Shown here one piece after another: positions 38,300 through 62,039 of a stretch of DNA of 64,000 nucleotides (its first letter is position 1; every line of letters begins with the position of its first letter). Under the pieces are notes generated by a model. It saw only the letters and a list, made by a program, of their open reading frames with translations, was not told the origin of the DNA and made no database searches. This DNA comes from Fragilariopsis cylindrus CCMP1102 (lineage: Eukaryota; Bacillariophyta; Bacillariophyceae; Bacillariales; Bacillariaceae). Position numbers and translations under genes: made by a program. Location of the stretch: the NCBI GenBank assembly GCA_900095095.1, contig FMBT01000323.1, forward strand, positions 310,001 to 374,000, read 5' to 3'.

Positions 38300-41200
38300 T
38301 CATCTTCCAATTCTTGTTGGTTCGGCCGATGGTTCGGAACTAGGTGCCTCGCTAGGATGAGCTGAAGGGGCGCGACTTGGTCCCTCACTTGGATCTAGAC
38401 TTGGAATAGAACTGGGTATAGCACTTGGTTTCAGACTTGGTGCTGAACTTGGATCTAGACTTGGAATGAAACTGGGCGTAGCACTTGGTAACGAACTTGG
38501 TTCTGAACTAGGACTAGAACTGGGAGCAGAACTGGGCATAGCACTTGGTAACGAACTTGGTTCCCAACTAGGACCAGAACTGGGAGCATTAGAAAGACTA
38601 GGGACATAACTGGGTTCTTCACTTGGAGAAGAACTTGGTTCTGAGCTTGGTGAGCTACTTGGCAACCTACTTGGCTCTGAACTAGGACCAGAAGTTGGAG
38701 ATAAACTTGGTGCTGAACTTGGATCTAGACTCGGAGTGGAACTGGGCATACCACTTGGGAGCAAACTTGGTTCCAAACTAGGAATAGAACTGGGCTCAGT
38801 AGAAGAACTAGGGACTGAACTTGGCTTGTCACTCGGAGACGAACTGGGTTCCAAACTAGGGAGCTACTTGGTGACTTACTTGGCTCTGAACTAGGAATAG
38901 AGCTCGGTGCTGAAGTTGGTGCTGAACTTGGATCTCGACTTGGAATGGAAGTGGGCATAGCAGTTGGCGATGAACTTGCTTTCAAACTAGGACTAGGACT
39001 GGGAGCACTAGTAGTACTAGGGGCTGAACTTGGGTCTCCACTAGGAGATAAACTGGGTTTCGAACTAGGTGAGCTACTTGGCGACTTACTTGGCTCTGAA
39101 CTAGGAATAGCGCTAGGTGCTAAACTTGGTGCTGAACTAGGATCTAAACTTGGAATGGTACTGAGGCTTGGGGCAGAACTTGGTTCAAGACTAGGCTCAG
39201 AGCTAGGAGCAGAACTAGGAGTTGAACTGGGCTCCAAACTAGGGAAGCTACTTGGCTCCTTACTTGGCAAAGCACTTGGGACAGAACTGGGAAATGTACT
39301 AGGAATTCCACTTGGGATGAAGCTCGGAATACCACTAGTACCTGTACAGTGTTTTGACATTCAGAAAAGCAGTTTTGAGTGCAGAGGTAAGGCAGGTTGT
39401 GTGAGAAAATAGTACAGTATAGCGTATGATCATAGTGGTACACATGAATGTATCTTTTTTATTAAACACACAGAAGAAATATGTCTATATCGATTATACT
39501 TACTTGGAACAGAACTGGGTAGTAAACTGGGCTCTGAGCTAGGAATGTTACTTGGCTTCCCACTTGGAACAGCACTTGGAATAGAACTGGGTTCCAAACT
39601 GGCAAGAGACTTGGGACAGAACTTGGTCTGCGACTTGGACCAGCACTAGGAGCTGAGCTAGCAGTATTAGTTGGGGTGTCACTAGGCTTAGTACTTGGCG
39701 CAGCGCTTGGTTCCAAACTAGGTTCACCACTGGGGGTAGAACTTGGAATAGTGCTGGGCAAGGAACTGGGTAAGGAACTTGGTACGCTACTGAATATATT
39801 TGATGGTAGTGCAGAAGGATTTGATGATATGGAAGGAACAGAAGATGGCACTACACTTGGATTTGAGCTAGGGTTGTAGGAAGGATTACTTGAGAGTGAT
39901 GGCTGCCCACTTGGAAGTAGACTCGGTTTGGATGAAGGTTCCATGCTTGATGTTGGTTCGAGGGTTCTTTCGTCACCATTGCAATTTACTGTTACAACAA
40001 GTTTATTGATGATCTCATTTAGATCATCGAAATTGTTAACACTAATCCCTTGATTTGTTGAGCAGCCTACCCCAGGTGCCTCTGGTTCACCCGCACATCT
40101 AGCAAGTGCGTTCAAAGCATTAAGAGCGTTTGCATCGTCAAGGACTGAAACGGGAATAATACTGATATCAAGATTGGCAGCATTATTTGCAGCATTCTCT
40201 GCTGCTGCTTGAGCAGTCTGTTCACCTTCGCATTTATTCTTTTTGTTACCTTGTCCTGTTGGTTCACCATCACCATCCAAGCAATTGGTTGGTATTCCAT
40301 CAGAAATTAAAACAATAATAGGATTTGGCTGACCATCCAGCTCTTTTTGACACCTGACAATTGCAGCCTCAGTATTAGTTCCACCACCCTTGTATTTATA
40401 ATTAGAGATGGTGGCTATAGCATCCTCTACACTTTCAGTAAGATTTTGTACTATGCCCGCATCCTGAGAGAATCCAGCAACACTGTATTGTTTGAGTATT
40501 GGAGCAAATCCTGCATCTTCAACACCCTGAAGTATCGAACTTGCAAAATTGGTAGCTTTTGTGAATGCTTCACAGCAAAGGTCTCCGAATGCCAACCTAT
40601 CACAGCACTGTGGTCCGCATGAAGATGAAGATTCAAGAGGAAACTGATCACACCTTTGGCAGGATTGATTGGGCGAACAAATTGACCCAGAGTCATCAAT
40701 AGCAATACACACACTAACATCTATTGCAGGGGAGCATGTAGGAAGCTGTGATGTACTCGGGATAAAACTTGGTGCACCACTCGGATCAAGACTAGGAAGG
40801 GAGCTCGGCAGAGAACTTGGTGAAAGACTGGGCTGAGAACTTGGTGGTTTACTCGGGATGAAACTTGGTGCACCACTCGGATCGAGACTAGGAACAGAGC
40901 TCGGCAGAGAACTTGGTGAAAGACTGGGCTGAGAACTCGGTGTTTTACTAGGAATGAAACTTGGTGCACCACTTGGGGTATAACTTGGTGTAACACTTGG
41001 ATCAAGAGTAGGAAAAGAGCTAGGTGGAGCACTCGGCGAAAGACTTGGCTTGAGACTTGGTATGAAACTTGGCAGTGCACTTGGTTTCAAGCTCGGGATG
41101 GAACTGGGTGTGCTACTCGGATCACCACTAGGAGCAGTACTAGGATTACTACTCGGCTTGGTACTCGGAGCTGCACTTGGGACATGACTGGGCTGAGAAC

Positions 41201-44172
41201 TGGGAATAGCACTTGGGGTATACCTTGGTGCGCTGCTTGGATCAAGACTAGGAACAGAGCTAGATAGAGCACTCGGCGAATGACTTGGCTTGAGACTTGG
41301 TATGAAACTTGGCAGTGCACTTGGTTTCAAGCTCGGGATGGAACTGGGTGTGCTACTCGGATCACCACTAGGAGCAGTACTAGGATTACTACTCGGCTTG
41401 GTACTCGGAGCTGCACTTGGGACATGACTGGGCTGAGAACTGGGAATAGCACTTGGGGTATAACTTGGTGCGCTGCTTGGATCAAGACTAGGAACAGAGC
41501 TAGATAGAGCACTCGGCGAAAGACTTGGCTTGAGACTTGGTATGAAACTTGGCAGTGCACTTGGTTTCAAGCTCGGGACGGAACTGGGTGTGCTACTCGG
41601 ACCACCACTAGGAGTAGAACTTGGATCCAAACTAAGTTCTGAACTAGGAGCACCACTCGGGTCGAAACTAGACAAAACGCTAGGTACAGTACTTGGCAAT
41701 GAACTGGGCTCTGAACTAGGAAAAGAACTAGGAGCTGAACTAGGAATGGAACTAGGTAAGCCACTTGGTTTATCACTAGGAAAGGAACTAGGGACGTAAC
41801 TCGGATTGAAACTGGGAGCTACAATTGGTTGAGGACTTGGATCGGAACTCGGAACAGAACTTGGTAAAAGACTGGGACTCGCACTAGGCCAAGCACTTGG
41901 GATAGAACTTGGTGCACCACTCGGATTGAAACTAGAAACAGCGCTAGGTATAGCACTTGGCTTCAGACTTGGAGTGGAACTTGGTATAGAACTTGGCATT
42001 AAACTTGGATCCGAACTAGGTTCTGAACTATGAACGGAACTTGGCGAGATACTCGGATCGACACTAGGATCTGAACTAGGAATGTTACTCGGATTGAGAC
42101 TGGGAGCCGCACTCAGTTCAGAACTTGGACCGAAACTCGGGTCAGAACTCGGCGAAAGACTTGGAATGGAACTGGTCATAGTACTGTGCAGCAAACTTGG
42201 TACAGTACTTGGGAATGAACTGGGCTCTAAACTAGGAAAAGAAGTAGGCTCTAAACTAGGAATGAAACTGGGTGAGCCACCTTGGTTATCACTAGGAAAG
42301 GAACTAGGGATGTAACTTGGATTGAGACTGGGAGCTGTGCTCGGTTCAAGACTTTGATCGGAACTCGGAACACTAGGTCCAGTTGTTGGTATAGGTGTTC
42401 GTGGTCGTGGTCGTGGCGCTTCTGTCGGTGTGCTTCCTAGAAGAAATTTGGTCGGGCTGTCAGTAGAAGGAACAGAGCTGGGTAGAGTACTCTGTGATTG
42501 ACTTGGCTTAAGACTAGGAATGAAACTGGGCTTAGCGCTTGTGCTAGTGTTAGGCGCGTTTGTTGCAGATGGTACAGCATTGGGTACATCACTTAAGCTG
42601 GGATATGACACGGGCAACAAACTCATTTCCGAGCTACTAGGGATGGAACTGGGTGCGCTACTCGGACCAAAGCTACTAGTAGGTTCGAGAATTGGGACAG
42701 AACTTGGTGAAGAACTTGGTTCCGTACTTGATTCACCTTTGTCTCCTAGAAGTAATTTTGTCGGTCTTTCAGTAGGGACCAATGGTACAGAGCTGGGCGA
42801 AAAACTTGGCTTGTTACTTGGAATAGAACTTGGTACAAAATTGGGTAACGCACTAGGCAATGAACTTGGTTCCGAACTCGTGGCGAAACTTGGTGTGCTA
42901 CTCGGGTCAAAGCTAGGTTCGAGACTACGGACATAACTTGGTGATGCGCTAGGTGATGTATTAGCTGGTAATGTCGGTGTTAGTGTTCCTAGCACTACTG
43001 TCGGTGTACTTGTTTTATTATCTATCTCTACAGGTGACTTGGATAGACTATCAGTAGGAGAATACGATAGTGATTCAGTAGAAGAATCAGTTGGTGATAT
43101 CGTTGGACTATCAGTTGGTGGTCGTGTCGGCGAGTCAGTCGGAGAATCTACTGGTGAATCGGTGGGTGATATTGTTGGAATGTTAGATGATAAAACCGAT
43201 GGTGGATCTGCTGTACTGCTAGAAGGACTGTCATTAGGAGAATCGGTTAAATCAATAGGAGGAACGATTGGTGGATCATTTGATGATTTCGTTTGTGAAA
43301 CCGTTGGTGAACCAGTTGGTGAGTCGGTAGGGGGATCCATTGGAGTATCAGTAGGAATATCAGCTGGTGAATCTGTCGGTGATGTCGTATATGATTTGGT
43401 GGGTGATTTCGTAGGCAACTCTGTAGGTGAATTAGTTGGACGTTTTGTTGCTGGACTTTTCGTTTTTTTCACCTTTTTACTTTTGGTAGGGGAATCCGTT
43501 GGACTGTCAGTAGGAAAATCAGCTGGTGAATCTATGGGTGATGTCGTATATGATTTGGTGGGTGCTTTCGTAGGCAACTCAGTAGGTGAATTACTCGGAT
43601 TTTTCGTAGTTGGACTTTCGGTTTTTTTCACCTTTGTACGTTTAGTTTTTGATTTCTTTGACTTTTTGATCTTCTGACCTTTACTTTTCCCCCCTGTACA
43701 CCCCTGTTCATCTCCTCTGCCTTTGCCGATGCTATCTCCTTCAATACTTTCACTTTTGTTGGTCGTCGAAGCATTTTCGTCTCCTTTGCCTTTCCCTTTG
43801 CCATTTCCTTTACTCTTTTTGCTTTCGTTGCTCCCAGAACACTTCTCTGAATGTTTTTTACTTTTTTCGCCTTCACTCTTTTCGTATCCTTTGCCTTTTC
43901 CTTTACTCTTGTCTCCTTTGTTTGTCTTGCCATTACTTTTACCGTTACTCTTTCCGCCTCCTTTGTTCTTCGAACCATTCTTTGATCTTTTTAGTCCACG
44001 TTCTAACACTACGTCGTTGTTTGAATCTTCTTTCTTATAGTTGTCGTCGGCACTGACACCGCCGTCGACAGCTTTCGCTGTACTAATTCCTTTTCCTAAC
44101 AACTCTCGATAGGTATCTTTTGCGAACAAGATATATTCATATATGGTAGTGGTACCGTTATTGTTATTGTTT

Positions 44173-44205
<33 letters not shown>

Positions 44206-44399
44206 TTGTAATTGTAGTTATTGCTGCTGTTATTAATAATTCTACCAGTACGAAGGAGGCTGACAAATAAGAAACCGGATCCGGCAGCTACCAATGTTAA
44301 TAACAGTGATAGAAGTAACAACGAATTAGAACGCGATCGATGTTCCTGTTGTTCTTTATCATGGCGTTGTCGTGGATTTCTTACAGTAAACAAGCACAT
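38300..44399 (-). CDS. Large surface protein with SPT and PSSxPS repeats and a von Willebrand A domain
   Basis: Exon 1 is 44399-39504, exon 2 is 39341-38300 and the intron is 162 bp with GTAAGT. The start at 44399 gives a basic tail and one membrane segment (SLLLLSLLLTLVAAGSGFLF), suggesting a signal anchor. A Lys/Gly/Ser-rich region, SPT repeats and long PSSxPS repeats follow. A von Willebrand A domain lies at about 40735-39975, with the MIDAS motif DDSGS, Thr in GGGTNTE and Asp in ISDGIP, which bind a metal and a ligand. PSSxPS repeats then continue to the stop. The A domain carries an unusual Cys-rich insertion (nine Cys within about 40 residues) just after the MIDAS. This layout fits an extracellular matrix or adhesion protein. 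Frames are broken near 39605 and 38865, each as if one base were missing (1980 codons if both were read through). Confidence 0.75.
40755..41042 (-). repeat. 96-bp tandem units inside the PSSxPS coding region
   Basis: Unit starts at 40755, 40851 and 40947 share CTCGGGATGAAACTTGGTGC or a variant. Each unit encodes 32 residues of PSSxPS-type sequence. It is next to a 240-bp tandem array of the same gene. Confidence 0.75.
41041..41620 (-). repeat. 240-bp tandem repeat inside the PSSxPS coding region
   Basis: The segment starting GACTTGGCTTGAGACTTGG recurs at exactly 41041, 41281 and 41521. The first two full units differ at only a handful of bases. Each adds 80 residues in frame. Near identity implies recent unequal exchange or slippage, so repeat number probably varies between strains. 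Confidence 0.85.
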
Positions 44400-45889
44400 C
44401 CTTTTCTTCCTTCGTTTTTTTTTATGTACACTTGAATCTGTGTGTGAAGTTTTTTTTGTGATTGTATATATATATTTGGTGTGGGAGATTATTATGGTTA
44501 ATTTTGGTAGCATACATACGAGATGTGTGGCCGTGATGAAATACCCTATTTTGATCATAAGTTCTCGACGCGTGCATAGTGATTACGCCGGTATAATAAT
44601 ACATAAATTTATTGATATTGTGCATTATGAGCGGAGAATTATTCCATTCTGCTTGTGCATTTTTTTTGTACGTGCAATCATGAGCGGGAGAATTATGCAT
44701 TCCATTCTGCTTATGCATTTTTTGCATGTTCAACCATCAATTATGAGTGGAGATGTTTTTTCGTTTCGTTCGAAAAGACGATTAAGTAGGTCCTAAGTGA
44801 CTCATTCATCAATCTAATCCCTTAATCATGATATTGGTGTGAATGATATGTCCAGTTGCTCGATCATATTTAGGGTTTTTTACTGGAGAACTGATCAGAG
44901 TTGAAGTTATCGCATTCTCTCTTGATGAGTGAGTCGACGCAGGGCTCGAGTAAAAAGTGAATAATGTTGTTTAATATGATCTGACAACAGGAAAGGAAAT
45001 TGAGTCGCGTTTTTCGCGTCGTGGTAGTCGCTTGGTCGTAGCCAAAATCCGTATTTGTGGCTTCACATAACCTACTTCCGGACCAAACCTGTTCAATAAT
45101 AGCTCGGATAGTAAAGCAGTCGTACAATTGTATCACGAAAATATCAATCAAAAACATATACGTTTAGCTTCAACAGGTCTAATTAGGAAGGGAAATGTGT
45201 CCTTCAACGGCACGGGGAAGGAGAGTTTAGTCAATAGCCGTTGTAGTCGTAGTAGTCTTGGTTAGCTGCGTCATCGTATAAAGGGAAAAATAATTGAAGA
45301 AGGGGGGCACGTTGAAGGAGATAACAGTTAACAGCTGTTGTGTTCGAAGTAGTCTTGGTTCGCTGCGTCATCGTAAGGGCTGGGCTATTAAACACTCATT
45401 TTTAGAATCAGGAAAAAACAAAGAATTCCAACTGCAAGTATTTGTAGTCACGTCCTAGCAAGCTTTTATATATATTGTTATTATAATAGAATATTACAAT
45501 ATAATATATATATTCCCCCTGCCCCTAACGTCAGCTCGAGATTCTCAAATTTGCTAACTGACATTTTGGGACTTAAAAATACGTCAAATTGGTAGAACAA
45601 CAGATCGAACATCAATCGGTCGATCGATCAAATGAAAATAGTCCAATGATGTCTAGATGATATAAGAGAATAATGGAGGTGCGGCTGTTATCTATTTTGT
45701 GGGAGTCATTTGTACAACATACGCATGCTATTTTTCCTCTTAAAAATACACGTCAAACATACCCGTTGATTATGGATCCACTTTTAAAGCTCTAGTAATA
45801 AAACAGATTATAAAAACATTTATTAGTATAACAATAATATACTCTAATGCGTATTTAGCTCATACTCTATAATTTGATTTGTAGTCCTC
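44400..45889. other. Spacer with short tandem duplications, promoter of the surface-protein gene
   Basis: At 44625-44755 a block with ATGAGCGG.AGAATTAT and CATTCTGCTT.TGCATTTTTT is duplicated, with a third partial copy. At about 45225-45390 a block with GTAGTCTTGGTT.GCTGCGTCATCGTA is duplicated about 118 bp apart. No gene is supported here. Confidence 0.4.
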
Positions 45890-46195
45890 CTCCCTTATGC
45901 GCCTCTTCTGGCGATTCGAAATTTGCAATACAACCCCACAGAATTTTTCCCAAATAACCAAATTCCGCTGAAACTGTTCATCCGTATTAACTGGATCGAG
46001 AGTTAAATATCGGCAGCAGTTCGTTTTTAGATTCGATTGACTAAGTTGCTCTTCTTCACGAGCTACGTAACGTAGTCCCTATCAAGATTCAACTTCTCTA
46101 CGATGGGTACTAAGATACAGTTTACGCAGATCTATTCATTCTTCTTCTTCTACTACTTCTTCTAACCGTCCACAAAGCGAGCCACGTATCCCCCA
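45890..46195 (-). pseudogene. Coding relic downstream of ORC3, unrecognised
   Basis: One minus frame over about 300 bp reads as protein. It includes IDLRKLYLSTHRREVES, GLRYVAREEEQLSQSNLK and CRYLTLDPVNTDEQF, then ends with RNLVIWEKFCGVVLQISN and a basic tail before a TGA. Stops after EEEE (TGA) and after REVES (TGA TAG) break it, and no start codon is in place. Composition (balanced, no homopolymers) is unlike the surrounding spacer. It could be the tail of a lost gene or a spliced exon. No family was recognised. Confidence 0.3.
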
Positions 46196-46212
46196 CACGG
46201 GCTATATCTTTT

Positions 46213-49200
46213 TCAACACCATACCACGGCAACCTTTTCATACGTGATCACTTCATTTTGTTGCTTTCCGCGTTGTTGTTGTTTCCACGTCGTTGTGGTG
46301 GGTTTCTTCCTAGGTCGGATTAATCCACATTTACGTAAAGTCCAAACCCCTATAGCAAAATCTTCCACGGTACCACCAAATGTATTGTACCAATCATCTC
46401 GATCAACTGACAATCGTCCCTCTAATAGTTCGTATAGTTGTCGCGATCCATATGGTAAGTTATCTAATATCCTTCGTCGGAAATTAATCGGCCGTCCATC
46501 ATTTACATTATTATTGTTAGGGTTGTTGTGAGTATTCCTCGTTTCTTCTTCTTCTTCTACCAGAGGTAGTGGTGGTGGTGTCATTATCGGCATCGGCATG
46601 AGAGGATTGATTTCAATCCAACGACGGGTCCAAAATTCAACTCGTTCTAATACAAGATGATTGATTTTTAATATTGTTTCTGTTATCCCCCTACGAATCT
46701 TCTTCTCGTTTCTAATACTACTAGTTATAATAACTGTACTATTATTAGTACGGTTTTTTTCTTCGTCTTCTTTGTCATCGTTTTTGTTAGTATTGTTGTT
46801 GCTAGTATTCGTCGTTGTCCTCCTCAAGGCCTCAACGAATACAATCATTTGTCGTACTATTGTAATAAGTTCATGTCGCTTTTGTTGATCAATTCCATTC
46901 ATTTTTCTACTACTACTACTACTACTACTACTTCTATTACTAGGACTATTATTATTTTTGGTCGTCTTCTCCTTATCACCACCTACTATGATTCCTCTTT
47001 GCAAATATCGTCGAAGTGTCCTTTCAACATGATCTTGATCATCATCTTGATCATCCTCATTATTCTCGTTTTCGTTTTCGTTTTCGTTATTGATATTCGT
47101 TTCATTAAATGTAGTAGCGGCAGTAGCAGCAGTGGTAGTAGTTTTTGCAGTAGTAGTAGTAGTAGTAGTAGTAGCTACTGCTGCAGCTCCTGCCTCACTA
47201 CTACTACTACCAATAATGATGCTGTCATCGTCGTCGTTGGTGGTGGTAGTGGGATGTGTTTTTTCCACCATCATGGGAACGTCTTCTTCGTCTCTTTCTT
47301 CTTCTCCTTCTTCTTCTTCTTGAGTTGTAACGTCAACTACGTCTACGTCAACGTCTACGTCTACTTCTATTTGTTTATAAACATCTGCCAATTGTTCTAA
47401 CGTCCAACTATATTGTTGTTGATATTGTTGATGTCCTGACGATGATAATAGAACACCTACCTCATTTCCATGTTCATTTTCATTCTCAGTTGACGTTGTT
47501 GTTGTTGTCGATGTGGTTGTGAGTGAAAGAATATGTAAGGGTAATAATGAACAGGAAATTTTCCACCAAAATTGTAAACATCCATTATGATTATTCTTAC
47601 TACTTTTTTTCGACTTTGATTTTAATAAATTATAACAATATAATAATGAATTGCATTTATCATTTAATGACATACCCTCCTGATTGTTACTACTACAAGA
47701 TGATAAAAGTTTTTGTGCATTATGATAAGAACAAAACCATGCGACAAATTCTGGTTGATATATATTCACATTATCAGTACCAATCATATTGTATAATAAT
47801 GATGATGTAGATGATAAGGATGTTGATGTTGATAATGATAAATGTTTTTGATCATCATTCTGTTGTTGATGTTGTTGATGTTGTCGATGTTGTTGTTGTT
47901 GCTGTTTCTGTTGTACTGAATTAGTTGGATTTGAGCTTGAGTTTAAGTCTGAATTTGTTTTAGGATTTGTATTTCTATTTGTATCATTTACATCTAAGTC
48001 TAATGATGAATTTGAATTTGAGTTATATAATGTATTCCATACAAATGAACCTTTATAGATAAAAAAATTCGATATCATATATAGTTTTAATTTTTGACTA
48101 AATGTTGTACATGATATGGTACCACCTAATGTATCTTGACATAAGCGTAACATAACTGAATTTGTTGCTGTTGCTGAAGAAGAGATTGCTGAATTTGCAT
48201 TTGAATTTGTGGATGATGTTGCTGATGGCACTACTAATAATGGCATTGGTGTATCTTTCATTTCATTTAAAAAGTATTGACACCAAATAGCTGTACCCAT
48301 ATTAGTATTTGGTGATGGCACTACTGCGCATGAATTTGAATATGAGGACTGTGGAATTTGACATCGTATTGTACGTATACCAAATCTTCCACCATTCTCA
48401 TTATAATTGGATGGATTTAATAATATATTATTGGATTGGAGATCATATTTCGAACCAATGGAATTTAAGACAATTAAACTAATAGGTATACCATAGTTCG
48501 TTCTCCATTCGATTACTGTTTCTAATAATTGTTGTTGTACTATATTTTGATTACTCACACCACTGCCACCGTCTTGACTATGAATAACTCTTGGATCTTC
48601 TATTAATAATATTAAATTTCCATGTTGTTGTTGTTGACTTTTATTACGACCACGTTCCTGACGTTTGCGTTTGTGTTTGTTACTATTGGTTGAGTCGTTG
48701 TCGTTGTCGTTGGTGTTGGCGTCGTCGTCCTCATTCTTCTTTTCTGTTGATGCTGTTGTTGTTGCTGCTGGTTCATTGTTATCGTCATTATTGTTATCAT
48801 TGTCGTCATACAGATATTTTAAATAGTCTAATATAAAATATTGTATACTTTGTTGTCTTTTACTTGCTGTTCCCTTCAATGCAATACCTTTCCGATCCAC
48901 TAAATGCTCGTAATGCTTACGTTTTGATACATTATAGGAATGTTTTTTTGTGTATGCAGCTGAAGAATCAACATTTGAATAATGAAATTGTTCAGTATCA
49001 TCATCAAACTCATCCATCTTTGGTATAATATGTGTATTCTCAAAATGATTTATTAATGCATCCCATATTAGTTGTAACGTTTCTGTCCAACTTGATAACA
49101 ATCTTGGTATATATAAACATATAGTATCTGTATTATTTGTATTATTATTGACACTATTCTCATTAATATTACTTTCATTCCCATTCCCATTTTCATTATT

Positions 49201-49863
49201 AGAATTTTGAAAATTCAATTCATTCCAGATAGTATGACAGATTTGTAATCGATCATTTAGACAATTTGATATTAATGACGATGATAGTATAAATAGTGGT
49301 AAGATTTCAAATGGATATTGTATTGACGACGTTGACGTTGATTTATTTGATGTATTTGTATTTGATGTTGACGTTGACTTATTTGACGTTGACTTATACG
49401 TTGACTTATTCGACTTGGGTAAACCAAATAAATCTTGACAATATTCCCATTCGTCGTCGTCGTCACTGTCATCGTCATCATCGCCTTTTTTGTCTCTATC
49501 ATCATCAGCATCATCATCATCAGAAGCGTCATCACCGTCACCACCATTGTCACCATCAACGTCACCATGATGACATCGTAATGTATTGATTATATAACGA
49601 CAGGTTGGTTGTACACATTTTTGAAATGTTTTTTGGACCGAGTGTTCAAAATGTTCATTCCAATATCGGATTGCTTCATTTCGTAATCGTATTTCCGATG
49701 TTTTGGTTGAGGTTATTATTCGATCCTCATAGGCTTTTTTGGATGGTGTTGGACAGGAATCATTTTTTAATAATTGACACCATGATGGTAATGCATTTGT
49801 CTGCTGCTGCTGCTGCTGCTGCTGATCTTGGTGGTGTTGATTATTATTGTTATTTTTGTTCAT
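46213..49863 (-). CDS. ORC3: Origin recognition complex subunit 3 (ORC3)
   Basis: A single 1216-residue frame from ATG 49863. ORC3 is part of the ORC2-3-5 core that loads the MCM helicase at replication origins in the nucleus. The match rests on the family pattern: an N-terminal block with RNEAIRYWNEHFEHSVQKTF, an AAA-like part with LILLIEDPRVI and a second strand PISLIVLNSIGS, the helical block CQDTLGGTISCTTFSQKLK followed by YMISNFFIYKGSFVW, and above all the C-terminal winged helix (RQLYELLEGRLSVDRDDWYN, FAIGVWTLRKCGLIRPRKK) ending in VAVVWC, like the WGGC end of animal ORC3. The usual length is about 700; the excess comes from Asp, Gln, Asn and Thr-rich insertions between conserved blocks. 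It is intact over 3.6 kb. Confidence 0.8.
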   Translation of the reverse strand: MNKNNNNNQHHQDQQQQQQQQTNALPSWCQLLKNDSCPTPSKKAYEDRIITSTKTSEIRLRNEAIRYWNEHFEHSVQKTFQKCVQPTCRYIINTLRCHHGDVDGDNGGDGDDASDDDDADDDRDKKGDDDDDSDDDDEWEYCQDLFGLPKSNKSTYKSTSNKSTSTSNTNTSNKSTSTSSIQYPFEILPLFILSSSLISNCLNDRLQICHTIWNELNFQNSNNENGNGNESNINENSVNNNTNNTDTICLYIPRLLSSWTETLQLIWDALINHFENTHIIPKMDEFDDDTEQFHYSNVDSSAAYTKKHSYNVSKRKHYEHLVDRKGIALKGTASKRQQSIQYFILDYLKYLYDDNDNNNDDNNEPAATTTASTEKKNEDDDANTNDNDNDSTNSNKHKRKRQERGRNKSQQQQHGNLILLIEDPRVIHSQDGGSGVSNQNIVQQQLLETVIEWRTNYGIPISLIVLNSIGSKYDLQSNNILLNPSNYNENGGRFGIRTIRCQIPQSSYSNSCAVVPSPNTNMGTAIWCQYFLNEMKDTPMPLLVVPSATSSTNSNANSAISSSATATNSVMLRLCQDTLGGTISCTTFSQKLKLYMISNFFIYKGSFVWNTLYNSNSNSSLDLDVNDTNRNTNPKTNSDLNSSSNPTNSVQQKQQQQQHRQHQQHQQQNDDQKHLSLSTSTSLSSTSSLLYNMIGTDNVNIYQPEFVAWFCSYHNAQKLLSSCSSNNQEGMSLNDKCNSLLYCYNLLKSKSKKSSKNNHNGCLQFWWKISCSLLPLHILSLTTTSTTTTTSTENENEHGNEVGVLLSSSGHQQYQQQYSWTLEQLADVYKQIEVDVDVDVDVVDVTTQEEEEGEEERDEEDVPMMVEKTHPTTTTNDDDDSIIIGSSSSEAGAAAVATTTTTTTTAKTTTTAATAATTFNETNINNENENENENNEDDQDDDQDHVERTLRRYLQRGIIVGGDKEKTTKNNNSPSNRSSSSSSSSRKMNGIDQQKRHELITIVRQMIVFVEALRRTTTNTSNNNTNKNDDKEDEEKNRTNNSTVIITSSIRNEKKIRRGITETILKINHLVLERVEFWTRRWIEINPLMPMPIMTPPPLPLVEEEEETRNTHNNPNNNNVNDGRPINFRRRILDNLPYGSRQLYELLEGRLSVDRDDWYNTFGGTVEDFAIGVWTLRKCGLIRPRKKPTTTTWKQQQRGKQQNEVITYEKVAVVWC

Positions 49864-50751
49864 ACTCTTATATTATTATTATTGTTTTTATTTTGTTTCG
49901 TCAATCGTCAATCGTCGATCGTCTTCAGTTACGCTACGCTACGCAGAGTGAGTGAATATTTTGTTTTGATCTGCCTTTTGATTTTGTTTTTGCTTGTTGT
50001 TGTTGTTTGCTACCAGGTGACTTGCTCCCTCTCTCCCCTCTCTCTATTTACTGTACTACAAATATAATGTAATGTAGTAACTGACGTTTAGCACTAACAG
50101 TAGCATCTATTTATTTCGTCGAAAACAAGAGGACAAGACAAATGATTTGTCATTGTTGTTTGTGGTGGTTGCTTCTTGTTTGTTGTTGGTTGTGAAAAAA
50201 AGAGAAATCCACACACACAAGAATGAAGGAATCTTTTCACTACAGTATGTACGTCAACCTCTCGCTCGCAGTCATGATGTGTTTTCCAGGGGGTAATAAT
50301 TGAAATTATTACCCCTGATGTTGTCGGCCTCTGGTAAGTTAGTGTAAGTATGATAAAAGGAGATCTCAAGCGCGCGATTAGATCATTGTAATTATTATAA
50401 CGCGCTCACAAAGTACAACAAGTAGTACATTACGAAAAAAATTATCAAACATGTTACAGTACCGGTAGGAAGTTTCAATCCTACATTATATACGAGAACA
50501 TGATGTACAAGTAAGAATCGCACGACCAATTTTTTTACCGGTTAGTCGGCAATGCGCTATGCCACTCGTTGTAACGTACTTCTACTGGTTAGCCAGCTTT
50601 GATCGAACCGGTTAACAAATATATGTTGAATCCATCACCGATACTCTAACCAATACAACAGTCAAGAAAATGATTTCACCTTTTCCCAAAATCAAAAATA
50701 ACAGATAACAAATCTATCAATCAATCAAACAATCAATCAAACAAACAAAAG
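49864..50751. other. Spacer between divergent genes, with a perfect hairpin
   Basis: Lies between the starts of ORC3 (-) and the secreted Cys-rich gene (+). It includes a 12-bp inverted repeat at 50290-50315 and AATCA repeats just before the ATG at 50752 (50716-50748). A tRNA-like stretch around 50530-50600 does not fold properly and was rejected. Confidence 0.45.
50290..50315. repeat. Perfect 12-bp inverted repeat with a 2-nt loop
   Basis: GGGGTAATAATT, then GA, then AATTATTACCCC. It is placed between two divergent promoters, so it could be a protein-binding palindrome or an RNA hairpin. No family is known to me. Confidence 0.6.
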
Positions 50752-51393
50752 ATGAAATTATCCACCACATTCCTAGCTTTATTTGCTGCTGTTATTGCAG
50801 CGTGTACCATGATGGACCAAGCCGATGCTCGCGTTGGGGGAGATCGCGATCTCAATGGTTGGCATGAGAAGTATACCCTATACTTTGCCAACAGTTGTAA
50901 CACTGATGTCAAAGTACAGATCAACTTTGACCGAGAGCAAACAATAGTAGCAGATAGCTGCCAGGTCTTCCAAAGTGGTCGTCAATACGAAGGCCCAGTC
51001 ACTTATACCGAATTGGATATTGATGACGGAGCTAAAACACAGATTGTTTTGTGTGAGTCTTATGACACCAACCTCTGCAACTTAGATGGTATGCCTGAAA
51101 ATGCTTGCGTCATTAAAGTTGACACTTGTCCCAAAAAACCACCGGTTCGAACTCCTACCCCGACTAAATCTCCAACGAGTCCACCTTCTCCTGGAAGACA
51201 ATGTGGTCGTAAATGAAACAACCGTTACGAATGTGGAAATAAAGACGGGATGGTAGACAAAGGGTTTCCATATTGTGGTGCTGCATGCACATATAATCGT
51301 TGTCAACCTTTCTTCCAAGAATGCAACAGTGACTCTGATTGTGATCCAAATAAGACTGTTTGTGGAGAGCAAGGATTTTGTGTTGGAAAGTAA
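50752..51393 (+). CDS. Secreted Cys-rich protein with one in-frame TGA
   Basis: ATG 50752 opens a signal peptide (STTFLALFAAVIAACTM), then a domain of about 110 residues with six Cys (NSCNTDVKVQINFD, LCESYDTNLCN, DTCPKK), a Pro/Thr linker (TPTPTKSPTSPPSP) and QCGRK. A TGA at 51214-51216 ends the standard frame at 154 residues. The very same frame then continues for 58 codons to TAA 51391-51393, encoding a second module with eight Cys (YECGN, FPYCGAAC, CDPNKTVCGEQGFC). The module has an odd Cys count (nine with QCGRK) unless the TGA stands for Cys or selenocysteine. Possible readings are recent nonsense mutation, readthrough, or selenocysteine. No function is known; the style fits an extracellular protein. 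Confidence 0.65.
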
Positions 51394-52269
51394 TCATATA
51401 AAGACCAATTAGAATAAAATTATTAACCAGAAGGAAGAGAGTTTATGTACCTTAATAGGATCTCATAGGTTCTCATAGTTTTTATAGTAGATGTACAGTA
51501 CCAACTGTAATAATTCTTTTGTTCTTTGCACAAGTTTCAGAACTCAATGATTCCGTGAGATAATACAAAAAAGATGCTACCCACCCGTGCAGCATGGTGG
51601 ATTTCATAGTAAATAATAATCAAAACCATCCATGATAGTTGATTGTAAAGTTGATTATTATTGCCTCAACCCATGTTATTTGGAGTTGAAAATGAAAAAT
51701 CCAACCCAAAATCATGAAAAATTCTACTCAATACCATGGAAATGTGGGTCTGAAACCAACAAAAAAATAGTCCACTGTACTGATGAACAAATGACGCTTA
51801 TAAGAACTATGTATTTCAGAAACTTTGTAAGACAGGACGTGAAATTCCAATTACAACCATATTTTTTGTCAACACCACAGAAAAAAAAGAGGTGCAAATG
51901 CGCACCTCACGGGCTAAGAGCACGAGCCAGTGCCAAAAGGAAACTTTAAGGAAAGGGACAGCTGGCGTGCCATCCAGTCTCAAGATTTGAACTGTGAAAT
52001 AAGACCAGTCTCAAGTTTTAAACGGTGAAATATTCGTGTCTCAACGAAAATTAGCGATACTTAACAGTACAGAAGGAGTGGTGCAAACGAAAACTCCTGG
52101 AAATATTTCAAGTAAAAGGGATAGGAGATGCAGTTCGAACACGTAAAATCGAACAAAAACAGCGAAAAATCAACCTAAGTTCCTTGGAATGAATAACGAA
52201 AAGCACACCTATCATAAAACTCAGATCGAAACAAGCAAAAAGCCTTTGTTATTTCATCAAATCAACACC
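51394..52269. other. 3' flank of the Cys-rich gene and upstream region of the next
   Basis: AT-rich. If the TGA in the preceding gene were selenocysteine, a SECIS element should lie here; an ATGA at 51547 is followed by a GTGAG and an A-run but no convincing stem was found by eye. No gene was seen. Confidence 0.35.
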
Positions 52270-52668
52270 ATGCCTCCGAAAAAACGCAAGGCAGCAACTG
52301 CAAGTAAAAGTGATGGTACTCATACGATGTGGCTCTTGATTTATGCAAGTAAAGGTTGCAGAGGGGGTCCCCAAGAGGAAAGAGAGGAGGTTCTTTACTC
52401 GACGAGGGAGAAGGCTATTTCTGGACTTCCGAATCTCATGGATAAGTTTGCAAACATTGGAAATGATTGGAGGGATGGGTTAAAAGGATTTGGACGAGAA
52501 GAAGCGGATCCGTATTTGGGTTTTAAATATTTCGGTATAACGGCGAGGAGGAACAAAGATGGAGGAATATTGTTATCCAACGCTCACAAAGATGGTGCTA
52601 GGCCTCCCATAACAGTGAGCATAAAACGTATGCTAGTGGATCCACCAGACTCAGAGGTTGGAAGGTGA
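52270..52668 (+). CDS. Small basic protein of unknown function
   Basis: A 132-residue frame from ATG 52270, which has good context (AACACCATGCC) compared with an in-frame ATG at 52189. It opens with PPKKRKAATASK, a classical nuclear localisation-like patch, then WLLIYASKGCRGGPQEEREE, LYSTREKAISGL, YLGFKYFGITARR and a tail with KDGARPPITVSIKRML. The folded part looks like one small alpha/beta unit. No family was recognised. No intron is needed. Confidence 0.55.
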   Translation: MPPKKRKAATASKSDGTHTMWLLIYASKGCRGGPQEEREEVLYSTREKAISGLPNLMDKFANIGNDWRDGLKGFGREEADPYLGFKYFGITARRNKDGGILLSNAHKDGARPPITVSIKRMLVDPPDSEVGR

Positions 52669-53351
52669 TTGTTCACTGACAAGAAGCTACTTTATCTTGT
52701 ACTCATCTTTTGAAGTAAAAGCACAGCTCGACTTTGTTTCAGAAACAATATTTTATATGCAATATATCTTCTCATTACTGTTTTTAGACCAACGCTACCT
52801 ACTTTTTTATGCGATTTTACGCAATTCATTTATTTATTCTCCTGGAGAAATGGATCATTTTCTTAACTAGTAGAATTCATATCATTTTAGTTTACAGATA
52901 AAATTATTAATGGAGACAATCAATCATTCAATTACTGTCGCAAAAAAAATAGTTCGCAAAATTCGGCTTTTAACTGTTGTTCTTGATGGAAGCCAAGACT
53001 ATTAACTAGTTATTGCATGCACGTCTTGAATTCCTTGTTATTATTTTCATTATTGGTAGTAATCGCTTCAAGTAGTTACGATACGACAACGATCGATAAT
53101 GCAAGGCGTAACAGGCACTTTCCACAAGTAAGACGTATTTACTATATTATGTCGTAACTTTTTGATTCGAAGTGTAATCAATTCAGCAAAGTCAGTGTCT
53201 GCTTACGGTGGAATGTAAGATGACACACACGAATAGGATCGACGAATATTTTCATCATATCGCACACTTGCTCCAATTTTGCGATCGGTAAAGACCTTCT
53301 TGTGCGAAGGCTGTGCGTGCGGTCCATTGATTTTATAGCAATCTCTAATAG
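52669..53351. other. Spacer between convergent genes
   Basis: AT-rich spacer, no gene seen. A short minus-strand open stretch beyond 53352 would need a 36-bp intron to join the upstream exon and was rejected. Confidence 0.4.
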
Positions 53352-56300
53352 TCAGTAGTAGGGATAGTAACATTGATTACCTTCAGGGGTGTCACAAACC
53401 TGGCAGATATCGTCTCCCCTGCAACCACTACATTTAGAAAGTTGATTCGTAGAGAATATATTGATAGACTCATTAGCAAAACATAGGCCTCCCTGTATAT
53501 TGATATAAACACAGAAAGAAGTAACGAAGACAAAAAAACGATGTACTTGTTAGATATTATATATTGCATATTAGATATTTTATATGTGGAAAAACAGCAA
53601 TTAATATGATGGTAAGATAGAGAAGGACAAGATACGTACAGTACTCGCAATGGCAATAATCAAGATCAATGCAATAACTGCCAAACTAACATTCAGAATG
53701 GTCCCAAGAAAATGATATTGAAGATCCTTTTCTTGTGCCTTTTTCTTTTCGCGTAGTATTCGTCGGTCTCGCAATAGTTGATTTTGTTTTCTCTCTCCTG
53801 GTATCGTAGGTGTTCTACCTCTACCGGAAGTACAATACGAATGTGCGCTACTATTTGTCTCAAGATTTGAGTTCGTACTTTTCGTTCTTTGTATGTTGGG
53901 GTTCCTTGACAGCGATGTCGTCAAAGCAGGATTTCGGGCAGGCCTTTCTATCGTCTCTCGTGACTTCGTCGATTTAATAATCCGTTGAGAAGATACTGCA
54001 GTTTCAGGTATGGTAGTATTTTTCTCTTCATCGAAACTTGGTTCCGAAAAATCACCATCATCATCGTCGTCATCACCAAAACTGTGTCCAGAAAGAGAAT
54101 CGCCGTCATCACCAGAATCAGAATCGCCATCGTACTGATGTAGTATCTTGGAACCAAGTGGCGATTTCCTTCCGTTCATCTCCATATCGTCAGTTGAGTT
54201 TTGACTCGAATAATACCTCGAGTTGTGACGTGAAGTTTCAAGAATCAATCGTCGACTTTTCTTAACATTTTCTAAACTTTCATCGATTTGTTTTAATCTG
54301 TCATTAGTTTCACGAAAAATACGAGCATTGACACGATATACTAAAAATTCAAAGAAGATAGCCAACGCTTCGATAACCCACATAGCCACCGCCTCAGCGA
54401 TGCTATCGTCAAAGAACATTCCTATGGTGATGATAAATCCGATCGTTGGGTTGACAATGTTAAATGGCATGCCCTTTTTAATAACGGGGATGATTTCGGC
54501 TAAAACTAGGACTATATATAGAGCCGTAACAACGCGAAACAGGATATCCCAATTTAAATCAAGGCTGGAAAATAAAACAAAATAAGTGAGTCGTCAGTGT
54601 GGCAGTAAATTTGAGAGTTGAATTGAATTGTAACAACTCACAGTATATCAAATATGGGATCATCACAACACTTAGTAGCACCCTTGTAGGTCGTAACAGC
54701 GACCATGGCAGCAATAAAATCTAACAGCATGGCCGTCCACGTAAATAATCGAATATTCCGTTTGAGATCTGTCTCACCCTTGTGGGGTGCCAACAATCGC
54801 ATGTACCTTAATGCTACTTTCCATTGTGGATCATCCTCGAAGAGATTTTCCTTGCTATCTACGGACATCTGAGAACGATTGCTCATATATGAATGATTGG
54901 AAAATCCCAAGAAACTTCCCCTTGATAACTGCCTCTTTAAACTCGGTCTCGGTTTACTGGCTTTGTTGCTAGCTGACTTTTCGTTTTTGCTATTGTCATG
55001 AATATCATTATTATCATCATTATCATGATTATTATCATTATTATCATCATTATCATTATAACCATTATCACCACCACCGCCGCCATCAAATTTGATCGGT
55101 ACTTCCTCGATCATTGAATCGTCGTCGTCGGAGGCGTAATTTGCTTCAGCCGATATATCAAATACGACCGAAGGACGACGAGCCGAAGCGTAGGACGAAG
55201 AATTAGTAGAATGCATAGAACTTTTAATAATCTCATCGTTGTTTCTACCACCACCACCACCACCACTATAGCCGGCCGAATGATGATTTGATGATGAAGT
55301 AGAAGCAGAAGCTGTAGAATGGTATGAATTTGACGGTAAGGATTTGTTGTTTGTGAAATTATTAGTAATTGGAGGACGATTCTGCTTTTGTTGATGATGA
55401 GAACTGGTTCGCAAAATACCTTGAGGTTTTGGTCGTTCTAGTAATAGAGATGGGGAAAGACTTCTACTGCCACCACCGATTCCTACTGTCTTCACTGCGC
55501 GACGTCCTCGTCCCGGCCGGCGCTGATCGCCACCAACACCAGTAGCATCGTCGTCGTCATCATCGTCATCATCGTCATCGTCGTCACTGTCATCTCCTTT
55601 AAGATCTACGAATGATACCAACTCGTCCAACATTTCAACATGATCATTTGGTGTCATATCCTTACTTCTTTTCCGTCGTAGTAAGGACGATGATAGTTGT
55701 TTCTGTTGTTGTTCTGTTGCTTGTTGTGGTTCCATATGCGAACTCTTTTCTTGTAACGATTGTGATTGTTGTCGACGAATGAAACGAAGTGGTTGTCCTG
55801 CTGTTTTCTGTGATAATGATGCTGATGATGGTGCAGACTTTACCGTCCTACCTCCACCAATGGGGGCACTTGCATTACGCTTCATACCTCTCCGAGGGGG
55901 TGGTCCACCACGAGTAGAAGAAAGCCGACCACCCCCGCCACTACCACCAATACCGCCATTCCTTATCTTATTGGTGTTTGTACTACTAGCACTAGTAGAA
56001 TTAGATGATCCCATCCTTTTCATTTCATTTAAATGATCCGCTGAAACACTACGAACATTGGACATCATTTTCTTTCTAGTTGCAAGACGATTAGGAGGTA
56101 CTAGTCGTTGTTTTTGTTGTAGTTGTTTGTTTTGGTTGGTCGATGCCGATATCGATGATGACGGTGATGATAATGCAATACCACTTTTTCCTCTCATCAA
56201 CCTATTATTATTATTCGTAATCTTATTCTTGTTGTTATTGTTGGTAGTATTAGTAGGAGGTTTAGACGATCGTGTTAATGATGATGACATTTCTGTTAAA

Positions 56301-57907
56301 TAATCAGCTGAATTACTACGACGTGTGATACGACGTGGACTAAAGGATCTACTTTTTAAAAGTGATGATGATGTTGTTGTTAAACTCTGTTCGTCGTTTT
56401 CGTCATCGTCGTCATGATCATGATCATCAGTGTCGTCATCATTGTCGCTATCACTGATACTGACATCATCACTACCGTCGCTATTGTCAATATCACAATC
56501 GTTACTACTAGTTCGTTTCTGTTTCGGAAGTGATACTTTAGTAGTACCATCAGGAAGAATTTTTAATTTCACATTCGGATCATTAGTAGCAAATTTATTA
56601 TTCTTTGTATTTTTTTTCCTTATCTTCACATTGTCATTAGCATTAGCATTCTCATCATAGTTTTCTTCATCATCATTATTATCATCACCATTAAGATTCT
56701 TTTGAAAATAAGCGAATCTTACCGATGATGATAATGATGAAAAGCTCTTACTATTATTATTACTATCATTATTATTGAGCGTTTTATTTCTTGGTCGTTT
56801 CTTTTTTTTTGGTTTACTACTAATAGACAACGAATCACCAGTTAAAATTGAAACTTCATCTGTATCTTTTTCATCTATTATAGATGATCCTGTTAATGTT
56901 GATGACACACTTCGTTTTATCTTTGCTCCTGGAATATGTTTTCTTCTTTTCTTCGATGATAATGAAATTGTATCTTCAGCAGATATAGTTCGTTGAATTT
57001 TTTTCAATGGTGTTGATACACTCCGTTGGATTTTGTTTCTTATTTTTGGTGGTGGTTTTGGTTGTGGTTGACGTAATGTTGGTGATAGGGATGCTGCTGC
57101 TGCTGCTGCTGCTACGTGCTTATGTTTTTCCTTTTTTAACTTAGTAGTACCACTACTAACATTACTATGTTGTGAGGCTGATGATGTATCTTCAGTAGAT
57201 ACGCTTCGTTGGATTCTACTATGAACTTTTTTTAAAGGTGTTGATACACTTCGTTGAATTGTATTTCTACTTCTTTTTGGTAGTGGTTTTGGCTTTAGTG
57301 TTGGTGGATGTAGACGTAATGTTGTTGGTGATAGGGATGATACTGCTGTTGTTGCTGCTGCTGCATGCTGATGTCTTCCCTGTTTCGTAACCGGAGTAAT
57401 ACCACTACTAACGTTACTATGTTGTGAGGCTGATGATGATGCCATTATTGAAATTGTATCTTCAGTAGATACACTTCGTTGAATTTTCTTCAATGGTGTT
57501 GATACACTTCGTTGAATTGTATTTCTACTTGTTTTTGGTGGTGGTTTTGGTGCATGTTTCTTTCTTGCCATTAATGAAATTGTATCTTCAGAAGATACAC
57601 TTCGTTGAATTTTATTTTGAACTTTTTTTAGTGGTGTTGATACACTGCGTTTCGGTGGATGTTTCTTTATTGATATTGGTACTGGTACTGGTAATTTCTT
57701 TTTCTTACCGTTATTACAAGAAATAATTGTTTCTACATCATTACTGGGACTATTATTAGTATGATTAGTAGTATCATTATCTAATTTCCATTTCTTTATT
57801 TTCTTTTTTATTATTGGAGGAGATTCTGATGTTGATGTTGCTACGGATGTTGCAGCTACCGCTATGGATGCTTTCTTCTTCACTACTACCGGTGTTGTTG
57901 CTGTTGC

Positions 57908-57939
<32 letters not shown>

Positions 57940-58144
57940 CTACCTCTACTGCTTTTGTCGTCGTCTTTTCAATTATCTTTTTCTTTTTCTTCTTTTTCTT
58001 CTTTTTACTACCAATTGTTGTCGAGGTTTCTATTGTTCCTGTTCCTGTACAAGTAGTATACATATCATCATTATCATAATCATTATCATCATCATCAGCC
58101 GCCGCCGAGGATGCTACCCTTTTAATCTTCTTTCCGGCTGCCAT
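53352..58144 (-). CDS. Multi-pass membrane protein with RSVS repeat region, three exons
   Basis: Exons are 58144-54642, 54564-53640 and 53492-53352 (1522 residues; donors GTGAGT and GTACGT; phases agree). The first 1100 residues are cytosolic-looking and disordered. Residues about 165-420 hold nine RSVS/RTIS sites in tandem pairs (QRSVSTPLKK then QRSVSTEDTIS), ideal sites for basophilic kinases and 14-3-3. Hydrophobic segments then follow at about 1131-1153, 1174-1196, 1202-1219 and 1223-1247, a charged helix (ETNDRLKQIDESLENVKKSR), a disordered acidic loop, a fifth segment (LGTILNVSLAVIALILIIAI) and a six-Cys tail ending CDTPEGNQCYYPYY. Four closely spaced helices with a coiled segment recall channel-like or tetraspan proteins, but no selectivity or voltage-sensor motif is seen. 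Function unknown. Confidence 0.7.
56960..57660 (-). repeat. In-frame repeats encoding RSVSTPLKK / RSVSTEDTIS
   Basis: Four diverged units of roughly 130-220 bp lie inside the membrane-protein gene. Each joins an RSVSTPLKK block to an RSVS(S/T)EDT block by a His/Pro/Ala-rich spacer. DNA similarity between the blocks is high (CTTCGTTGAAT recurs), so the units arose by duplication. Confidence 0.7.
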
Positions 58145-60020
58145 TGTACCAAAGTTATAGCGACGTCGTCGTACTACTGTAGTACCGGCGTAGTTCCAGT
58201 CCAGTCCAGTCCAGTCCGGTCCAGTCCAGTTGTTAGTTGTCGTTCATTTAATAAAGTTACAATAACTTCTTGGAAGCGCGATGTAGCAATGGCGATGCCA
58301 AAAGTTGTTGCTCACGATTTAAAAGGATGGATGATTTAGTATCTGTGCGTTTTTAATTTTATTATATATCTTGAAACAAATTGAAAATGAGCAAGAAGCA
58401 ACAACGATCCAAGAATGAGCAACAAAAAAGGGTTCTCTTTTTTAGTAGGGTTTTTTAACCCCGTTCCATTCCAGTCACCAAACAGTTAGCCTATGATGAC
58501 ACATGACATGCCGATGTGTGTTTCTGTGCTGTTGTGTCTTTTTCATTAGCTCCTTCCGTTACATTAATTTTCCCGGTGAAATTCAACGAAAAATGTGTTG
58601 TCCGGTAAAAAAATCATAACAGCATGAAATGAAAATGACTAGATTAAAAACAAATATCTTTGTATAAGGGTCCAGTCCCAAAAATTAAATTCTTTTATTG
58701 CCCCAAAGTCATTATCATTGTCATTTCCTATTCCATTCCATTCCATTCATTTCATTGCTCTTTGCATTGCTTGCATTACGACGTACTGTAAGTTACCAGT
58801 ACAAGATTTAACCTACGTCTACTACAACTACCTACATACAGACCAGCCATGCCAGGCAATGGCAAGAACTTACTCTTTTGCAACATCACGATTAGTATAG
58901 AAACTGCATCCGCGAATTTATTCAAGAACAACCCCGCAAATAACTGGTGGGACGGAACTACTAGATCATAGCCCACTAATAAGGCAGCTAGCTAACTTCT
59001 AACATTATTTAATTGCACCAAAACATTATTAACCAGCAGCACAGCACAAACTTGAAGCAGTAATATAATCATTGGTAAAATCATTCCCAAGGCTATAACT
59101 GACATGACTGATTGGTTGGTACATACAAAATGACACATGGGAGAGTTTTCCACTGTGTTGACAAATATAATGATGGGAAGAAATTTCCATCAATTGGTAC
59201 ACACAAAATGACAAATGGATACAAGAGTTGTAATTACCTGCATAGACACATGGAAGAGTTATCCACTGTGATGCAAGTGCAAAACCCTTGCATCATTTTG
59301 TGTTGAATGCACAGACAGTGTTTTAACAGCAAGACTTCCTGTCACAAGTCCTGCCCTACTACTACACTGTATGTAGCTGCTCCTTGTAAGTAGAGTCTGT
59401 GACTTTCCTTGCCTATTCTTAGCATTTTGAAAACTCATGCACCAGCTATCTCACTCACACAATGAGAAGTTGCACTTTTTGTGCAAGCTATACTGGCAAG
59501 CAAATGTTGTCGCCTACTAGCCATTAAACAATAACAACAACAGCAACAGCAACAACAAATTGTATGGGTATATTTGGTGTGCTGGAAAACCAAAATACTT
59601 TCTACCAGTATTGTTGCTGGGACAAGCAGTGTGCAAACAAACAAAAGAGACACAATGTGTGTGCATTCTACAGATATATACCAACACCGCACTTTAAAAT
59701 ATACAGTGGAGAGGAATAAGATTGAACACAGCAGCATGTAGAGGTGTGATATGTGTTGCTTTTTTTTTTTGATGGGATAGCATAGGTTAGGTGCTGCTGT
59801 ACAAGCAAGGAAGGCATACCAATTAATGAAAACTATTGGATAAGTAGCTAGCTAGGTTCTCCACAATAGAACATGACTATAAAGGCATCTTACAAAGATG
59901 TTAGTTTTGTACAATTATGAACTTATAGGGATACGATTATTTATACTGTACACTGAAATCTTTTATATCGAATTTTAATTGTGAGACACGTATACTACAT
60001 AGGGTCGCCAAAGTTTTTAG
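58145..60020. other. Gene-free spacer
   Basis: A CCAGT pentamer run lies at 58196-58230, just upstream of the membrane-protein gene, with CATTC repeats at about 58730-58750. A block with GGTACA.ACAAAATGACA..TGG is duplicated near 59117 and 59197. The rest shows nothing gene-like. Confidence 0.4.
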
Positions 60021-60881
60021 TTAAAAGAGAAAGAAGTAGACAACTCCTCCTACCAATAATAACGATGTAGGATGATGCATGTTCCAATTATTGCTGGTGG
60101 AATATGAACTACTGCTATCTTTCAAGTCAAATATGTCAGTCTCGAGGACAGAATACATTGATGTTTGGATAGCCAAAGTTTTATTGAAATTCTTGGTTGC
60201 ATTAGCACCGCCAATATACGTGATTACATTATTGGTGTAACCTTCTTTTGAGTTAGCGCTAAATGGTACATATACATTTCTGTCACTATAAATAAGGGGT
60301 GTATAACGGTATTTGGAATGTTCGAAATCGTCAATGTTGTCGTCGGTGGTAAAGTCGTAGTCGTCGTCCGTCGTTGAATTACATACACCATCCTTGTATG
60401 CGATAGAATTGTTAACTTCTGAAAGAAATCCGTCAAAGTTTGTGTCATTAGCATATTGATAACAATTGTATACGGTATTGAAACCAAATGTATTCAAACC
60501 AAATTCAATCGAGCATCGTTCATTGTATGGCATAAACACGTCTCCGTCTAAGAAACTATCCCCATCACAACCATACGATACACCTAAATGTTGGAACCAT
60601 AAGTAATTTTCGGGATCAGGGTAATTATCGACAGAGGATACGTACGGATTACATACTAATGCCATTTCTACATTCCTATTTCCTGTATAGATTCTGGGGC
60701 CATAGCTGAAGAAGGCCTGACAACTGATTTCATGACATTCATTATCGTAACCACAAAATGAAGCGTATCCACACATATCTGGTTGGTCACCAGTGCAGCT
60801 GGTAGCAGTTGAAGTACCAGCAAGCAGTAGTACGGTTGCTGTAGCAATTTTCGATGTTAGAAATATAAGTTTTGTCATCAT
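60021..60881 (-). CDS. Secreted, probably GPI-anchored Cys-rich protein
   Basis: A single 286-residue exon. The N-terminal signal peptide is IATATVLLLAGTSTATS. The body has paired Cys (CTGDQPDMCGYASFCGYDNE with CHEISCQAF), several N-glycosylation sites (NDT, NNS, NST, NAT, NKT) and an acidic loop (TTDDDYDFTTDD). The C-terminus has small residues (SSSSYSTSN) then a short polar gap and a hydrophobic end (TSLLLVGGVVYFFLF) with no charged tail, the pattern of a GPI-attachment signal. It would sit on the outer cell surface. No enzyme motif was seen and no family recognised. The first ATG at 60881 is followed directly by another at 60878. Confidence 0.75.
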   Translation of the reverse strand: MMTKLIFLTSKIATATVLLLAGTSTATSCTGDQPDMCGYASFCGYDNECHEISCQAFFSYGPRIYTGNRNVEMALVCNPYVSSVDNYPDPENYLWFQHLGVSYGCDGDSFLDGDVFMPYNERCSIEFGLNTFGFNTVYNCYQYANDTNFDGFLSEVNNSIAYKDGVCNSTTDDDYDFTTDDNIDDFEHSKYRYTPLIYSDRNVYVPFSANSKEGYTNNVITYIGGANATKNFNKTLAIQTSMYSVLETDIFDLKDSSSSYSTSNNWNMHHPTSLLLVGGVVYFFLF

Positions 60882-61422
60882 AGATTTATTCTTTTTCTTT
60901 AGTTTGATTTTATGATTGTATTTCTTTATCGTTTACGTTTTTTATACGAAACATTTTCACGTGAAGCTTTAATAAAAAGTACAATTTTGTAACCAGTGTT
61001 ATTCGTACGACAGTAATGCAGTTGTAATGTATGTTGGCACGAATGAAATAACGCGCGTCTGATTTGACGTCGACCCTTTTCTAAGCGGCTATGCTATGCA
61101 TCTGCTCTCACAAATATTCGAACTATGGCGAAGGTTTTAAATTGTATCTACCCTTCTACTATCACTTGTAGTATCGTTGGGTGTTGGCCACCGATTCTCA
61201 CCAGCATCGAGGAATCCTAGGGGGATGAATCGATCAAGAAAAACGACTTGAAGCAGAAGCAAAAACCAAATGACAATCCTTCTCGCAAATTGAATTTAGT
61301 TCGGAATCAAATCAAATCAATATTCCTATTCCCGTCGTCGATGGTGTTCCACACACATTTCTTTCGAAGTCAGTAGTTATACGGTACAGATGTCAATAGA
61401 GACTTTTTATCCAAGAACAGGA
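60882..61422. other. Spacer
   Basis: AT-rich upstream region of the GPI-type gene and 3' flank of the next. Nothing else seen. Confidence 0.35.

Positions 61423-62004: not shown

Positions 62005-62039
<35 letters not shown>

Follow-up and report, generated by a model that had tools for sequence, protein, structure and literature searches.

Does an in-frame TGA in a gene for a secreted Cys-rich protein of Fragilariopsis cylindrus stand for selenocysteine, is it read through, or does it simply end the protein? The question is raised by a frame in the 64,000-nucleotide stretch of DNA analysed here (the window), which starts with the ATG at 50752, runs for 154 codons to a TGA at 51214-51216 and continues for 58 further codons to a TAA at 51391-51393. 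The initial annotation had described this continuation with its eight Cys codons, all of which was reproduced, and had considered a selenoprotein, a programmed readthrough or a fresh nonsense mutation. As set out below, the third option is the best supported: very probably, a recent TGT-to-TGA nonsense mutation specific to one haplotype has hit a gene whose product is a secreted Cys-rich protein of two modules. The parts of the locus are as follows.

50752..51132, plus strand: first module, signal-like by eye where it starts, with a Cys-containing domain and KVDTCP at its end; open frame, with related modules aligned from contigs C336, C620, C582, C464 and C108.
51133..51198, plus strand: Pro/Ser/Thr-rich linker, frame-shifted in the C336 haplotype; frame and haplotype alignment.
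51199..51390, plus strand: second module with ten Cys positions, broken by the TGA; frame and module alignment.
51214..51216, plus strand: in-frame TGA at an ancestral Cys codon; TGT in seven of seven other module copies.
51391..51393, plus strand: TAA, ancestral end of the frame; same aligned end in C336, C620 and C259 (TAA) and in C500 (TAG).
50946..51165, plus strand: stretch siding with the dispersed paralogue on C620 against C336; 45 of 53 informative sites.
40754..64000, no strand: part of the window colinear with contig C336, the presumed second haplotype, the colinearity extending to where the window's own contig stops; identities of 82-95.5% in blastn pieces.

By itself, the length of the tail proves little: at this base composition, 57 codons stay open by chance with a probability of about 0.02, and among the 25 ORFs in the window that reach 150 aa, 5 (this ORF among them) are followed by at least 58 open codons. 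It is homology, not length, that lifts the tail above chance, since it belongs to a Cys module present elsewhere in the genome. With the TGA read as Cys, the second module has ten Cys as had been proposed, one lying before the TGA and eight after it, and it is 91% identical to the module on C336 and 45-53% identical to those on C620, C259 and C500.

Searching the genome gave at least 9 matches at the DNA level and, with the intact copy as protein query, at least 17. The second module was found at eight loci, namely in the window, on C336, C620, C259 and C500, and as decayed pieces on C31, C791 and C459 (12268). In all seven copies other than that of the window the codon matching the TGA is TGT, and a stop is found there in none of them; three of the seven are the relics on C31, C791 and C459 (12268), which were placed at the TGA codon by alignment. 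The TGA thus replaces an ancestral Cys codon, and here the initial annotation was borne out. The relic on C31 also has a TGA, at another position than that of the window.

The same comparison bears on programmed or leaky readthrough of the TGA, by which a minor full-length form would be made. The tail is in frame, complete, homologous and Cys-complete, as this reading would have it, but a programmed stop finds no counterpart at this codon in any of the seven other copies of this genome, and the other haplotype (C336) does not have the tail in frame. In addition, the base following the stop is A (TGA AAC), while the leaky stop context is TGA-CTA. We regard readthrough as very unlikely. A literature search for stop codon readthrough in diatoms returned nothing on this by title.

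Four copies carry both modules (window, C336, C620 and C259), and only the one on C620 is open throughout, with 217 aa. C336 has no TGA but leaves the frame within the linker, and its second module is open in another frame with all ten Cys kept. In the first module of C259 there are indels that shift the frame, together with two in-frame TGA codons. C500 is an open gene of 182 aa in which the same second module stands behind a different first part. The disabling change in the window is thus set against intact homologues, C620 over both modules and C500 over the second, and it has company in sister copies that are disabled as well, C336, C259 and the three relics. As far as the reading frames tell, neither the window haplotype nor C336 encodes the two-module protein, which is encoded by the dispersed paralogue on C620.

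C336 is best read as a second, strongly diverged haplotype of this locus. About 31 kb of C336 are colinear with the window, starting at approximately position 40754 and reaching as far as the window's contig does, and the blastn pieces are 82-95.5% identical; if short repeat matches and a single 383-base piece at 75% are set aside, identity is lowest (81.7%) around this gene. Together with the second copy that window positions 20001-22500 have on C277 (98% identity), this colinearity indicates that the assembly keeps both haplotypes, and other genes are also paired on different contigs (C464/C582, C90/C597 and C69/C547, for example). Within the first 40,000 of its 63,242 bases, C620 matches the window at the gene (50601-51413) and in an unrelated piece besides; C259 matches it nowhere but in 50484-51209. 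C336 could instead be a segmental duplicate. Window positions 40754-42728 match the start of C336 many times over, in overlapping pieces at different offsets; the stretch where that contig ends is thus tandemly repetitive. Diverged haplotypes of F. cylindrus have been described from a diploid PacBio assembly of 745 primary contigs (59.7 Mb) and 288 alternate haplotype contigs (9.1 Mb) (PMC5634323), and the two colinear versions found here, 82-95% identical, are of the same kind. The subject of that paper is allele-specific expression, and the passages and tables of it used here hold nothing on this gene or on disabled alleles.

If the assembly or its consensus were wrong, the window haplotype would really read a Cys codon and the gene would be intact, and the same kind of error could account for the frame shift in C336. 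We give this a small chance. The TGA is a substitution, and errors of long reads are mostly indels; moreover, the neighbouring family members on C620, C464 and C582 are open. Nevertheless, the likely source assembly, which is PacBio-based, was compared with 13 finished fosmids and agreed with them at 98.5-100%, the differences per fosmid reaching 387 SNPs and 135 indels (PMC5634323).

Between the window and C336, the frame of the first module has evidently been kept: five of five indels in it are multiples of three, compared with 7 of 27 in the flanks (one-sided Fisher p 0.004). The linker has one 6-nt indel and one frame-shifting indel of 22 nt, and the second module none. The 63 codons compared in that module differ by 5 synonymous and 8 non-synonymous changes (dN/dS 0.35), which are too few for dating them relative to the stop, and nine of the nine remaining Cys codons are kept in the window. 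Such an undecayed tail would fit a young stop and would equally fit a tail that is still used. The initial annotation had taken the conserved frame after the stop as an argument against long-term loss, and this holds insofar as the loss appears recent. Translation of the tail does not follow from it, however, since the module on C336 is just as open and has its ten Cys although it is out of frame; an open tail therefore marks the recency of the lesion and not use of the tail.

Another way to remove the stop would be splicing. On paper, in-frame GT...AG removals are possible, e.g., 51209-51319 (111 nt) with a pyrimidine-rich end, but 226 GT/AG combinations were listed without a splice-site model, so that some plausible ones are to be expected. 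Moreover, splicing would take out conserved Cys, and C620 needs no intron to stay open in the homologous region. An intron spanning the TGA is, in our judgement, extremely improbable.

There is more to be said for selenocysteine with regard to the organism than with regard to this gene. In this genome, TGA stands at the expected active-site position in genes of two families: GPx-like genes on C67, C464 and C90 (NVASQ-TGA), with GPx-like pieces on C90 and C597 (NVACL-TGA), and a gene on C79 (FCVS-TGA) which was matched as Pfam Rdx and which we take to be SelT-like. Of 15 tRNA-Sec matches in the genome, 13 exceed the cut-off; the genes are arranged head to tail, about three to a group, at spacings of 163-220 nt (L009-L011; C69, C547, C56, C138 and C678), and part of the 13 are likely to be haplotype pairs. 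A high copy number, with eleven tRNA-Sec predictions, has been reported for F. cylindrus (PMC5330540). It is therefore very likely that the organism decodes selenocysteine, in agreement with the initial annotation.

The presence of Cys at this position in all homologues would also suit a haplotype-specific change from Cys to selenocysteine decoded via a SECIS, and a pair of glutaredoxins, one Sec and one Cys, whose flanks are homologous, has been described in F. cylindrus (PMC7539508). As here, that pair consists of two very similar copies, one with a TGA and one with a Cys codon. It differs in that glutaredoxin is a known redox family with selenocysteine ancestral by the tree of that paper, whereas at the present locus Cys is the ancestral state, the scans turned up no convincing SECIS, and the copy with the Cys codon is itself out of frame. 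The paper also argues that a Cys-to-Sec change is hard unless a SECIS is already present (PMC7539508). Among 31 glutaredoxin matches in the assembly analysed here, none has a TGA inside. It is only a thought that the glutaredoxin pair may itself represent two haplotypes.

As to the gene itself, the replaced Cys lies in an apparent disulfide module and not in a known redox site, no selenoprotein family was matched, and no SECIS stood out 3' of the gene in scans whose sensitivity is low. Following the suggestion of the initial annotation that a SECIS might lie downstream, we scanned 51394-53500 with rules of our own: the strict rule gave none and the relaxed rule two weak sites, at 51792 and 51988. 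Under a middle rule applied to 51394-52400, no candidate was obtained in the window and none in C336, with candidates in only two of four control genes (L030, with 2 of 60 shuffles as good, and L038, with 12 of 60; L031 and L032 were missed); on C620 this rule gave one match, equalled by 11 of 60 shuffles. Weak sites turned up in both haplotypes under the loosest rule, some of them shared, the best one (-7.0) in C336 with a stem that falls short of the closing GA. The Rfam model SECIS_1 had no match in 50700-53000 or in the whole genome, and equally none at five selenoprotein-gene loci; as these were missed too, it was dropped as a negative test. Taken together, the scans suggest, at their low sensitivity, that the window gene may lack a SECIS.

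A selenoprotein, like readthrough, is thus an unlikely account of this TGA. That a selenocysteine codon has been caught at its birth, i.e., that a Cys-to-Sec replacement is segregating in one diploid diatom with a SECIS of a form missed by the scans, strikes us as highly improbable. If true, a selenocysteine codon would be arising in a secreted disulfide-rich protein, in an organism with an unusually large set of tRNA-Sec genes.

A recent nonsense mutation at this Cys codon, the reading that we prefer, would imply the following. One of two strongly diverged haplotypes would have acquired the TGT-to-TGA change, and in the second (C336) the second module has dropped from the frame by a different lesion. 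Translation would stop at the TGA and leave a secreted precursor of 154 residues, made up of the first module, the linker and QCGRK; alternatively, the mRNA could be lowered by nonsense-mediated decay. The product would most likely be the first module with a Pro-rich tail ending in QCGRK, secreted via its signal-like start as judged by eye. Such a one-module product is plausible, as first modules without this second module are found on seven contigs (C464, C582, C312, C108, C93, C628 and C41). The second module may be dispensable at this locus, because C620 still makes it and because first modules occur elsewhere without it. A literature search for pseudogenes or nonsense alleles of F. cylindrus had a single match, which concerned introns. 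At two of the seven contigs that have the first module without this second one, C628 and C93 (L023 and L025, respectively), the first module was seen as the C-terminal end of longer Pro/Thr-repeat proteins, directly before their stop.

The copies also seem to have exchanged sequence. Scored at informative sites, the window sides with C620 against C336 at 7 of 25 sites in 50601-50945, at 45 of 53 in 50946-51165 and at 3 of 62 in 51166-51393. Judged by eye, C336 is close to the C464/C582 type in the second half of its first module, and the second module of C620 is like that of C500, from which it differs by a dN of 0.15 compared with 0.33 from the window. The simplest reading of this pattern is conversion or exchange between copies, and 50946-51165 is possibly a gene-conversion tract. 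By swapping modules or tracts, the copies might give rise to broken and intact versions again and again, and the family is best read as one of shuffling, partly decayed secreted Cys-rich proteins. The locus thus points to an exchange of modules or tracts in such a family. In the main it serves as a correction: in an organism with selenocysteine decoding and diverged haplotypes, a TGA that replaces a Cys codon and is followed by an open tail mimics a selenoprotein and is more simply explained by a young nonsense allele. The control is C336, which is out of frame yet equally open and so demonstrates that little can be concluded from an open tail.

Regarding the nature of the lost module, its last approximately 27 positions match the squash-type trypsin inhibitors (knottins) of PF00299 (Pfam E 0.00029; PDB chain 1mcv_I, E 0.0035), with 21.2 bits for the window tail, 13.7 for C620 and 13.6 for C500, all of them under the cut-off of 22. 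The second module differs from a knottin by its ten Cys and, judged by eye, apparently lacks one of the knottin Cys. It would be a guess that the lost module is an inhibitor or binding domain. In the PDB profile search the first module found nothing (best E 0.51) and the second again weak squash inhibitors, and NCBIfam returned 0 families for 2 proteins. A structure predicted for the read-through window protein without an alignment had a mean pLDDT of 42.3, too poor for use. Searches for relatives in phages gave none, and those in viral contigs none that were confirmed.

Several copies lie approximately 5-21 kb from a contig end. A subtelomeric location was considered but not borne out: among 12 contig-end stretches a repeat array (44 CCCTAA) was present only at C108, the other 11 having at most two TTAGGG/CCCTAA. 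Finally, an imperfect direct repeat was noticed at window positions 51960-52060, upstream of the next ORF (ATG at 52270), part of it being unchanged in C336 by eye; perhaps it is a promoter element of that ORF.
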